Assembly: GCF_002154695.1 (NCBI RefSeq)
Contig: NZ_MTAV01000002.1
Coordinates: 310,001-374,000 of the forward strand
Length of the DNA: 64,000 bases
Reading direction: 5' to 3'
From: Nostoc sp. T09
GTDB taxonomy: Bacteria > Cyanobacteriota > Cyanobacteriia > Cyanobacteriales > Nostocaceae
Shown here in pieces: positions 4,427-8,069 of the stretch (positions are counted from its first letter, which is position 1; every line of letters starts with the position of its first letter). The notes under the pieces are model-generated. The model saw only the letters and a program-made list of their open reading frames with translations. It did not search any database and was not told the DNA's origin. The position numbers and the translations under genes are program-made.

Positions 4427-5497
4427 ATGAGCAATCTATTTAGGCAATTTCTGCAAAAGGTAGGGAGTGGAAATCACACAGGAGAAAATTTAACTCGTGC
4501 TGAAGCCGCAACAGCTACCAAAATGATGTTGCTAGGTGAAGCAACTCCTGCCCAAATCGGGGCGTTTCTGATTGCCCACCGCATCAAACGTCCTATCCCA
4601 GACGAGTTAGCAGGAATGTTAGATGCTTACAATGAACTAGGGCCAAAACTCCAACCCATCGCTTCAGAACGACCAGTCATAGTTTTTGGCATCCCTTATG
4701 ATGGCAGAACGCGCACTGCACCAATTAGCCCGCTCATCGCTTTAATATTAGCTGCTGTTGGTCAACCAGTGGTGATGCACGGTGGCGATCGCTTCCCAAC
4801 AAAGTATGGACTACCCTTAGTAGAAATTTGGCAGGGGTTAGGCGTTGATTGGACAAACTTGTCACTAGCAAAAACCCAGCAGATATTAGAGCAAACAGGA
4901 ATTGGCTTTGTTTATACGCCTCAGCATTTCCCATTGACTCAAAGTATTTGGGAATACCGGGATCAACTGGGGAAACGTCCACCCTTGGCAACAATGGAGC
5001 TAATTTGGTGCCCCTACGCTGGGGATGTGCACATGATTCCGGGATTTGTCCATCCACCTACAGAAACGCTGTTTCAGCTAACTCTGGCTTTGCAAAATAT
5101 TACAAAATATACATTAGTGAAGGGATTGGAAGGTAGTTGTGATTTGCCACGCGATCGCACGGCGATTATTGGTTTATCAACACCCTCAGGACAGCTAGAA
5201 AGGCTGCACCTCGTGCCGCGTGATTATGGTTTTACTACTAAGAATGTCCCCCTTAACACTACAGAAGAACTACTTACCCAAATGCATGAGGTTTTGGCTG
5301 GTAATCCTACAGAATTAACACAAACAGCCTTGTGCAATGGTGGATTTTATCTCTTTTCAAGTGGCGTTTGTCCAGATATGCGATCGGGTATAGCGAAAGC
5401 GGAAGAATTATTGATGAATGGTGTGGTAGCTGACAAACTTCAACAACTCAGCCAGGTAGTAAATTCAATATCAAAAACAGCATTTCAGCCAGCGTGA
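4427..5497 (+). CDS. cnaT: CnaT-like protein, anthranilate phosphoribosyltransferase fold
   Basis: 356-residue protein of the TrpD / nucleoside phosphorylase fold, with an N-terminal helical domain (1-75) and an alpha/beta domain. The PRPP-binding GTGGD signature of true TrpD reads GIPYDGRTRTAP here, and the KHGNR-type loop reads MHGGDRFPTKYG, so it is unlikely to make tryptophan precursor. In Anabaena PCC 7120 the cnaT product is of this family and is required for expression of the nitrate-assimilation nir operon; its biochemical activity is unknown. The neighbouring ntcB on the same strand supports the name. The gap to ntcB (241 bases) holds heptamer repeats and a MITE-like element, so co-transcription is uncertain. 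Confidence 0.78.
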   Translation: MSNLFRQFLQKVGSGNHTGENLTRAEAATATKMMLLGEATPAQIGAFLIAHRIKRPIPDELAGMLDAYNELGPKLQPIASERPVIVFGIPYDGRTRTAPISPLIALILAAVGQPVVMHGGDRFPTKYGLPLVEIWQGLGVDWTNLSLAKTQQILEQTGIGFVYTPQHFPLTQSIWEYRDQLGKRPPLATMELIWCPYAGDVHMIPGFVHPPTETLFQLTLALQNITKYTLVKGLEGSCDLPRDRTAIIGLSTPSGQLERLHLVPRDYGFTTKNVPLNTTEELLTQMHEVLAGNPTELTQTALCNGGFYLFSSGVCPDMRSGIAKAEELLMNGVVADKLQQLSQVVNSISKTAFQPA

Positions 5498-5644: not shown

Positions 5645-6547
5645 CTACTTAGCCACAGATAAAATCATACCTTCACAGGCTAAGAGTGCTTTGGGAAATA
5701 CAGACTTAACTTCAGTTTGAACCCGATCTAGAAAATCATCGTCATCATCTGGATGATAATGAGATATGACTAAGCTTTTAACAGCCGCATCATTAGCTAA
5801 ATCCGCAGCAGTTTGCCATTGCAAATCAGCTAAATCATGGTTGTGAGCGGTAGGGGGATTGTAGGTACCGTTAGCAATCAATAAATCGACCCCTTTAATT
5901 AGCTGTAAAATCCGCTCTTGCTCTAGTTTCTCAGGACTCTTGGGTAAATCTGTAACGTAGGCAACGCTAAACTCTTGCCAAGTAACTCGGTAGCCAATCG
6001 ATCGCTGGTGTTTATTGATCAATGCTGTTTTAATTGTGACATCCTCCAGCTTGACCTCGCTACCTGAGTTGAGATTGTGGAAATGCAATTCCGACTGCAT
6101 TACCTGTAAAGGATAAGGAAAGTGTGGCTGGAGCATTTGGTCATACAGGCATTGCTTAATCGAGGCGCTATTCGAGGCTGCTGTGCCGTAGATATGAAAG
6201 CAATTTTGGTCAATAAATGCGGGGGCAAAAAAAGGAAACCCGAGAATGCGATTTGATTGGGAGTTAGTGAAAAATAAATGGGCTTCTATTGGCTGTTGCA
6301 GGTGCTGCCAAGTTTTACCCAGTACTCGTAAGCCAGTACCCCCATCAAAAATCAACTCTTTTCCCGCTACACGAATTTCTACACAAGCAGTATTTCCACC
6401 ATAGCGGTTGGTGCTGCTCCCTGGGGTAGGAATCAAACCTCTAACACCCCAGAATTGCACTAAAAATTCTGCGGCTGGACTACTGAGTGGGGTAGTTTGC
6501 TTCTCAGTTAAGTAGCTTTGGGAACCCGACAGCTCAAAATTTGACAT
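5645..6547 (-). CDS. Metallo-beta-lactamase-fold protein with lost metal-binding motif
   Basis: 300-residue protein of the MBL-fold family whose members carry FWGVRGSIP, RYGGNTSCVE and then the metal motif HxHxDH before GFPFF. Here FWGVRGLIP (32-40), RYGGNTACVE (48-57), FDGG (67-70) and GFPFFAPAF are kept, but the metal motif reads TNSQSNR (94-100): all four ligands (His, His, Asp, His) are gone. Asp200 in YVTD and a His in ISHYHPDDDDDFLD (about 262-274) remain, while the GWGHS-type His is missing. The frame is intact, so it is probably a non-catalytic family member, not a decaying gene. It lies 12 bases downstream of panD and is probably co-transcribed with it. Confidence 0.85.
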   Translation of the reverse strand: MSNFELSGSQSYLTEKQTTPLSSPAAEFLVQFWGVRGLIPTPGSSTNRYGGNTACVEIRVAGKELIFDGGTGLRVLGKTWQHLQQPIEAHLFFTNSQSNRILGFPFFAPAFIDQNCFHIYGTAASNSASIKQCLYDQMLQPHFPYPLQVMQSELHFHNLNSGSEVKLEDVTIKTALINKHQRSIGYRVTWQEFSVAYVTDLPKSPEKLEQERILQLIKGVDLLIANGTYNPPTAHNHDLADLQWQTAADLANDAAVKSLVISHYHPDDDDDFLDRVQTEVKSVFPKALLACEGMILSVAK

Positions 6548-6559
6548 TTTCCTCGAATT

Positions 6560-6943
6560 TTAGACCTTACTGAGCAGGTCATCGTAGTGCCGTACTTCCA
6601 ACAGTTGGTTTTTTTCGTCTACAATGACAACCGTAGGCGAGTAATTTTGTAACTCTTCCGGAGTAAACTGCCCGTAGGCCATTATAATCAGGCGATCGCC
6701 TATAATGCCTAGACGTGCGGCAGCCCCATTTAACTCAATTACTCCTGAGTAATCTGGAGCAGGTATTGCATAGGTAATAAAACGCTCGCCATTAGCTTTA
6801 TTCACTACTTGTACCTGTTCGTAGGGTAAAATGCCAGCTTTTTGCAACAGAATGTTATCTATACTGATACTACCCACATAGTTGACATTTGCCCCTGTAA
6901 GGGTACAGTTGTGAATTTTGGCTGAAAGGAGAGTTCGCTGCAT
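6560..6943 (-). CDS. panD: Aspartate 1-decarboxylase proenzyme
   Basis: Pyruvoyl enzyme that decarboxylates L-aspartate to beta-alanine for pantothenate and CoA synthesis; cytosolic tetramer. The 127-residue length is normal. The self-cleavage site Gly24-Ser25 is present (YVGSISID), as are Lys9 (SAKIHN), the ERFITYAIP strand and [13 protein letters not shown]. Ser25 becomes the pyruvoyl group after cleavage. The degenerate MBL-fold gene follows after 12 bases on the same strand. Confidence 0.97.
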
Positions 6944-7166: not shown

Positions 7167-7679
7167 TTATCCTTGAGCAGCTTTAATAGACTTTTCTACC
7201 AATGCATTTACCTGCTCAACATCCTGCCAACCGAGAATTTCAGTCACCTTTTTTTCCAGATTTTTATAAGTGCGGAAAAATTCAGCAATTTCATCCAAAC
7301 GGTGTGATGGTAGGTCTTTTAAAGATTTTATTTGAGCGTAGCGCGGGTCTTTGTCAGGAACGCAAAGGATTTTTTCATCGCGATCGCCACCATCAATCAT
7401 CTCTAACAAGCCAATCGGTCGTGCAGCAATTATACAACCTGGAAAGGTTGGTTCATCAATGATGACCATACCATCTAACGGATCGCCGTCATCAGCTAAA
7501 GTATTGGGTACAAAGCCGTAGTCGTAAGGATATTGTACCGAAGAATAAAGGACTCGATCTAAGGCAAAGGCCTGAAGATCTTTGTCATATTCGTATTTAT
7601 TTTTACTCCCGCCGGGAATTTCAATTAGAACGTTGATTAGTCCCGGTTTTGGTTGGGCTGGTATAAGGGTTAAGTCCAC
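7167..7679 (-). CDS. ppa: Inorganic pyrophosphatase, family I
   Basis: Soluble Mg-dependent pyrophosphatase that hydrolyses PPi to two phosphates and drives biosynthetic reactions. It is 170 residues from a GTG start at 7679, preceded by AGGAGG with 9-base spacing. The protein then starts [13 protein letters not shown], as in family I enzymes. Active-site segments are visible: [18 protein letters not shown] and the signature [10 protein letters not shown] with its metal-binding Asp residues, then DKDPRYAQ. The frame stays open upstream to 7871, but those 64 extra codons have no family counterpart and overlap hairpins. Confidence 0.95.
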
Positions 7680-8069
7680 AAAAAAGCGCCTCCTGTAACA
7701 CAGTAGATTTTGGGTGCATCGATATAGGCTCCCCGTGTAGAATTTTAGGGCCAAGATGGACTTCTTCCCAAGGTATTCTTTTAACAAAAGGGAACAGGTG
7801 AGAGCAACAGTCTCCTGTTCTCCTGAAAAAAAAGGCGGCAATTCTTTAGAATTCACCGCGCCGCCTGTCACTATTGTGATTTCCCCCTGCTAGAAGCAGG
7901 TGGGATTCTTAAGTGTTTAAATAGAGTCGATAGTATCCAAGTTATGTCTTCACACAGTCACAAGAGAGTTGATCCAACTCTGTGTTTTGCTGAGTATTTG
8001 TGCTGGGTTACAGTTTATTACACTTTGGATGATTTCTTTTCTATATTCACTGATGAGACTGTCTAATTT
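7680..8069. other. Structured ppa upstream region, possible mobile-element remnant
   Basis: 390 bases without a supported gene but rich in hairpins. GAACAGG/CCTGTTC pair at 7792-7798 and 7814-7820, followed on the ppa strand by a CCCTTTTGTT stretch. GGCGGC/GCCGCC with inner AATTC/GAATT lies at 7834-7865. CCTGC-TAGAA-GCAGG lies at 7886-7900 with flanking CCC/GGG. The last resembles the subterminal hairpins of IS200/IS605-type elements, but no transposase is present. The ppa promoter or a leader must lie here. Confidence 0.4.

Follow-up and report, generated by a model that had tools for sequence, protein, structure and literature searches.

The window analysed here, the whole stretch of 64,000 nucleotides from Nostoc sp. 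T09, carries a gene for an MBL-fold protein in which most of the metal site is replaced. Comparison with related sequences indicates a conserved pseudoenzyme family that was derived stepwise and is represented in Nostocaceae by this protein. Judging from its residues, the protein very probably cannot hold a two-metal centre, and ordinary phosphodiester hydrolysis is not expected of it. Nostocaceae have preserved the altered site with hardly any change, which makes a new, non-cutting job for it most likely.

Gene, fold and metal site

The pseudoenzyme gene has an ATG start and zero internal stops, and a Shine-Dalgarno-like GAGGAAA lies just 5' of the ATG. An earlier reading of the letters without database searches (the sequence-only reading) had described the frame as otherwise undamaged and the gene as lying 12 bases behind panD, and both descriptions were correct. 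The start of the ppa reading frame is a mechanical GTG, and the true start is probably further in. A gene similar to the TrpD2/PRK07394-type anthranilate phosphoribosyltransferase (4427-5497, plus strand) points towards the pseudoenzyme gene; trpD2 was detected in the flanking sequence examined (up to 4 kb) at each of the 80 named Nostocales loci, which include Nostoc, Anabaena, Calothrix, Fischerella, Scytonema and Tolypothrix. The features of the window are:

7167-7871, minus strand: open reading frame of ppa, inorganic pyrophosphatase, named from its own sequence
6560-6943, minus strand: panD, aspartate 1-decarboxylase (TIGR00223, 128 bits), directly upstream of the pseudoenzyme gene on the same strand
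6548-6559, minus strand: spacer of 12 nt from the panD stop to the pseudoenzyme ATG, containing GAGGAAA
5645-6547, minus strand: MBL-fold pseudoenzyme gene, 300 aa (PF12706; RNase Z/atypical class-II phosphodiesterase branch)
6248-6268, minus strand: motif II, residues 94-100, TNSQSNR replacing THxHxDH (H95N, H97Q, D99N, H100R)
6011-6013, minus strand: K179, where intact copies have the ligand His of motif III (LNHP); the clade mostly has Q or K here
5948-5950, minus strand: D200, motif IV ligand Asp (YVTD), retained according to the alignment
5870-5872, minus strand: N226, in the position of the HEAT-loop acid; the same in all 75 clade members
5816-5872, minus strand: HST-loop region, residues 226-244, about 5 residues shorter than in intact copies
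5759-5761, minus strand: H263, motif V ligand His, retained; some members of the clade have Q, N or Y instead
5744-5755, minus strand: residues 265-268 with the clade-specific H265 and D268; intact copies have D265 and H268

The protein matches Pfam PF12706 (Lactamase_B_2) with 35.6 bits, above the cut-off of 27, and one divergent clade member (L100) falls under this cut-off with 19.9 bits. NCBIfam gave sub-threshold matches only, to RNase Z and cyclic-nucleotide phosphodiesterase models. An AlphaFold2 model built with 36 sequences (pTM 0.81, pLDDT 76) has the alpha-beta-beta-alpha MBL fold, and Foldseek related it to RNase Z and ELAC-like MBL proteins (E about 1e-11). The closest folds were RNase Z, YhfI and ELAC-like proteins, behind one annotated arylsulfatase of the same fold. 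A paper on Nostoc PCC 7120 (PMC7354497) mentions an MBL-fold protein, all0268, and yielded no link to the pseudoenzyme gene.

Ligand positions were assigned by aligning a profile of intact and degenerate copies to the solved RNase Z structure 1Y44. Seven ligands were counted, namely those of HxHxDH in motif II, the His of motif III (LNHP), the Asp of motif IV (TDT) and the His of motif V (FHHDP), and the HEAT-loop acid and the HST loop were scored besides. The window protein has lost five of these seven ligands, so that only D200 and H263 remain, and its two catalytic loops have changed as well. GHST is absent from the HST loop, whose His is gone, and in the motif V region the HHDPxH of intact copies has become HxHPDD in the pseudoenzyme clade. 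The replacement of all four HxHxDH ligands between the family sequences RYGGNT and GFPFF had already been pointed out in the sequence-only reading; it was right about motif II and understated the extent of the loss, since the motif III His, the HEAT acid and the HST His have gone as well.

Conservation in Nostocaceae and stepwise origin

A degenerate DNA pattern search found F-[TS]-N-x-Q-x-N-x-x-x-G-F-P-F in 194 of 218 Nostocaceae genomes, which cover 54 of 56 genera; as a control, the pattern was reversed and had 0 matches in the same 218 genomes. The occurrence of the motif in so many genomes rules out an assembly error or an isolated mutation. Three more genomes, all of genus g36 (G100-G102; L160, L161, L162), have the variant TNSQ[SA]SH; this variant, with Ser instead of N99 and His at position 100, falls within the pseudoenzyme clade. 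Residues N95, Q97 and N99 are present in all 80 named Nostocales loci and R100 in 79 of them. Among the 75 clade sequences, N95, Q97, N226 and D268 are invariant, D200 is kept in 74 and H263 in most, and position 100 is Arg in 69 and His in 6. Eleven positions flip between near-invariant states when intact copies are compared with the pseudoenzyme clade: six of these (95, 97, 99, 226, 265 and 268) fall within the former metal-site motifs or next to them, and the others are 38, 80, 145, 177 and 201. The most conserved stretch of the clade, residues 116-145, lies downstream of the motif and is more conserved than in active copies.

The median omega of the pseudoenzyme was 0.146 (Nei-Gojobori, 483 pairs). 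This is close to the value of the neighbouring trpD2 (0.125, 20 pairs), and panD and ppa gave 0.10 and 0.07, respectively. The new residues are invariant or nearly so and omega is low, which argues that the replacement is fixed and under selection and is not decay. Thus, we found a conserved loss of catalytic residues together with a retained fold and purifying selection, as in a pseudoenzyme. The sequence-only reading had proposed selection on a non-hydrolytic role, and this is well supported by the single clade, the near-invariant new residues and the low omega. It had also asked whether the replacement is conserved in a clade and linked to panD, or rare and under relaxed selection; the former was found, in 194 of 218 genomes and with panD upstream at every named locus. 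The gene is nevertheless dispensable, because it is missing or broken in 24 of the 218 genomes, with frameshifts in G030, G106 and G189. Frameshifted or fragmentary copies behind an intact panD were seen at L110, L119, L121 and L129 (G030, G103, G106 and G189).

Outside Nostocaceae, orthologues at the ppa-(panD)-MBL locus are of two kinds. Intact orthologues (H[ST]HWDH, NHPN, TDT, GHST) occur in families f6, f21, f24, f30 and f39. Intermediate orthologues (HxHW[D/E]R), without GHST and in nearly all cases without the motif III His, occur in f4, f10, f13, f15, f17, f27, f33 and f38. The intermediate pattern was found in 66 of the 390 genomes sampled from the class and in none of the Nostocaceae genomes of this sample. 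All seven ligands are present in 55 of 55 intact copies, five in 37 of 41 intermediates (HxHWDR) and one to three in all 75 fully converted Nostocaceae copies. The HST loop is 24 aa long in 55 of 55 intact copies and 19-20 aa long in 72 of 75 Nostocaceae copies. In a gene tree made by a quick method with no bootstrap, all N-Q-N copies form one clade (SH-aLRT 100), and intact copies are split from all degenerate copies (SH-aLRT 92).

Because H100R is common to intermediates and Nostocaceae copies, it is plausible that motif II was lost in the order HHDH, HHDR, NQNR. The ancestor would have been an active MBL phosphodiesterase encoded behind ppa-panD. In a first step, Arg would have taken the place of the fourth His of motif II, and the His residues of motif III and the HST loop would have disappeared. 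Nostocaceae would afterwards have exchanged the HEAT-loop acid and the three ligands still left in motif II, and the new residues would have become fixed. The gene tree is compatible with a single origin of the intermediate state. Its distribution among families would fit parallel loss or transfer as well, given that f6, a family of the same order, has intact copies. A viral or phage origin was rejected, as a scan of viral contigs gave no relative.

We found no earlier description of this pseudoenzyme family in the open-access papers searched. MBL pseudoenzymes are already known, and this one comes with an unusually complete evolutionary series. Intact, intermediate and converted forms live on at one locus, and therefore the order of ligand loss is readable and testable. 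An automatic annotation as metallo-hydrolase would very probably be wrong for about 194 Nostocaceae proteins.

Paralogue, panD neighbourhood and possible roles

A paralogue with an active-looking HSHWDH motif is encoded elsewhere (G000 C242:40650-41507; L180:4597-5526), between surE and ribF, which were named from their own sequences; both neighbours encode phosphate-ester enzymes (5'-nucleotidase and riboflavin kinase/FAD synthetase). It is 47% identical to the pseudoenzyme over nearly the full length, has the same single-domain layout, and its site is fully intact (HSHWDH, NHPGE, TDT, GHST, HHDPAH). Counting intact frames in the 218 Nostocaceae genomes, we found both genes in 192, the pseudoenzyme only in 2, the paralogue only in 11 and neither in 13 (Fisher p = 8e-13, with shared ancestry ignored). 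Thus, 192 of the 194 genomes with an intact pseudoenzyme also have an intact paralogue, as would be seen for a pair like INTS9 or CPSF100 and its active partner; the two in which the paralogue was not detected (G087 and G153) are assemblies 95% and 93% complete. Both genes were lost jointly in genera g5, g17, g36 and g44, and one less complete genome of g46 without either gene is perhaps a further joint loss. G103 has also lost the paralogue; its sister genomes keep both genes, and its size is not reduced relative to the genus. Beyond Nostocaceae, at least two family matches were present in every one of the 66 genomes that have the HxHW[D/E]R intermediate, and the single-copy genomes inspected have intact sites (e.g. 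L075, L093 and L096).

Enzymes of the PF12706 branch are homodimers, and in Apyc1 the other protomer contributes catalytic residues (PMC9117128). INTS9, which has NYHC where HxHxDH is expected, cannot bind the metals and is a pseudoenzyme that dimerises with the active INTS11 (PMC7980224); CPSF100 is similar to INTS9 (PMC4819959). Because the enzymes of the branch are homodimers that share catalytic residues, we favour a partner role like that of INTS9 beside INTS11. By this analogy, the pseudoenzyme may pair, as a subunit without metal, with the active-looking paralogue, a proposal that we make tentatively and prefer to, in this order, a ligand sensor, another chemistry, a PanD factor and drift. 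The two proteins would form a heterodimer in which the pseudoenzyme supplies cross-protomer residues; alternatively, it could tune the active subunit by binding RNA or a nucleotide in its remodelled pocket. It counts against the partner role that the two genes are unlinked, that the pseudoenzyme is dispensable and that two genomes have it with no paralogue detected. In addition, several of the double losses are in reduced genomes, so that co-loss may be general gene loss, and the double loss in G103 without genome reduction is one case only. That degeneration is seen only beside a second copy is also expected from simple redundancy. If the pseudoenzyme controls the paralogue, nitrogen-fixing cyanobacteria would have a further, new level at which the turnover of nucleotides or RNA is set.

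Another explanation, possible but rather unlikely, is that the pseudoenzyme is a stand-alone sensor, whose remodelled pocket (N95, Q97, N99, R100, D200, N226, H265 and D268) binds a nucleotide or other phosphorylated metabolite without hydrolysis and in which R100 makes up for some of the positive charge that went with the metals. The new residues are indeed polar, became fixed together and cluster at the former active site (six of the eleven switching positions), R100 is already present in the intermediates and stays in most clade copies, and omega is low. However, there is no effector domain or output, positions 38, 80, 145, 177 and 201 have switched too, His stands at position 100 in 6 of 75 copies, and a sensor alone does not predict that genomes with the pseudoenzyme and without the active paralogue are nearly absent. 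That the protein is still an enzyme, either metal-free or using one metal bound by D200 and H263 together with nearby residues, for example H265 and D268, seems improbable. The conservation of D200 (74 of 75) and, mostly, of H263 is in line with it, as are the new, nearly invariant H265 and D268 beside the old motif V, but only two of seven ligands are left, neither catalytic loop is intact, and we know of no metal-free hydrolase of the MBL fold.

The linkage with panD deserves a separate discussion. PanZ (PanM) controls the maturation of PanD in enterobacteria, and a PanD-specific partner of this kind, sensing beta-alanine or CoA precursors or controlling PanD maturation, was suggested by the sequence-only reading. 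In support of this, panD is directly upstream of the pseudoenzyme gene in all 80 named Nostocales loci, with a gap of 11-12 nt in 73, and G024 has lost panD and the pseudoenzyme together. However, presumably catalytic, intact orthologues also sit behind panD in other cyanobacteria; thus, panD and the MBL gene were neighbours before the site was lost, and therefore the adjacency does not explain a new function. The most constant neighbour of the MBL gene across families is ppa. Furthermore, PF02261 (panD) was not found in 19 of 20 non-Nostocaceae genomes that were chosen as carriers of the ppa-linked MBL gene and that include genomes with intermediates, and panD is kept by 19 of 20 tested Nostocaceae in which the pseudoenzyme is missing or broken. 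The MBL gene and panD are thus separable both ways, which would not be expected of a PanZ-like factor and its target, and the proposed tie to beta-alanine, CoA or PanD is unsupported; we regard it as distinctly improbable. At least one Nostocaceae copy is apart from panD: at L045 (G067), no adjacent panD was detected and only trpD2 is nearby. The 19 non-Nostocaceae genomes without PF02261 are near-complete (G365, G270, G369, G389, G401, G283, G343, G241, G299, G334, G353, G479, G301, G430, G381, G575, G268, G540 and G219).

Least probable of all, and by our judgement very improbable, is that a redundant duplicate under relaxed selection is drifting to loss, the change of the motif being a passive early step. 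The missing and frameshifted copies in 24 of 218 genomes would fit, as would the greater divergence of the pseudoenzyme relative to the active paralogue (mean identity 69% vs 79%, in different samples). However, about 194 genomes have intact frames with the same new residues, residues 116-145 are more conserved than in active copies, the median omega of 0.146 argues against passive decay, and the invariance of the new residues is the opposite of drift.

Comparison with known systems

The atypical class-II phosphodiesterases (YhfI, Rv1339 and CpdA of C. glutamicum) and Apyc1 share Pfam PF12706 with the pseudoenzyme, and its model matches YhfI (6KNS, Foldseek E 1.6e-10), PhnP (3G1P) and Apyc1 (7U2R). 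These phosphodiesterases are defined by [T/S]HxHxDH (PMC9293780), which is in no member of the pseudoenzyme clade; TNSQSNR stands in its place in the window protein, and the His residues of motif III and HST are lost. With the model of the Rv1339/YhfI type (NF041851), the pseudoenzyme scored 31.7 bits, far below the cut-off of 400. RNase Z (B. subtilis 1Y44, E. coli 2CBN) is the top sequence match among solved structures and ranks second as a fold match, and its motifs, HEAT loop and HST loop are in the same order as in the pseudoenzyme. However, the metal motif and GHST of RNase Z are absent, the HST loop is shortened, and the scores are below the cut-offs (TIGR02651, 40.8 vs 293 bits; NF000801, 45.8 vs 252); with the RNase Z model, the cyanobacterial paralogue, although intact, itself reaches no more than 94 bits.

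INTS9 and CPSF100 of eukaryotes are likewise MBL pseudoenzymes with a ruined HxHxDH that coexist with an active relative, INTS11 and CPSF73, respectively (PMC7980224, PMC4819959). However, they carry beta-CASP and C-terminal dimerisation domains, whereas the pseudoenzyme is a single MBL domain of 300 aa, and the INTS9/INTS11 heterodimer is proven, whereas that of the pseudoenzyme and its paralogue is only proposed. By analogy with INTS9/INTS11 and CPSF100/CPSF73, heterocystous cyanobacteria could have a bacterial counterpart, doubtful as this is at present, in which a clade-wide, single-domain pseudoenzyme in an obligate heterodimer regulates an active cyclic-nucleotide or RNA phosphodiesterase.
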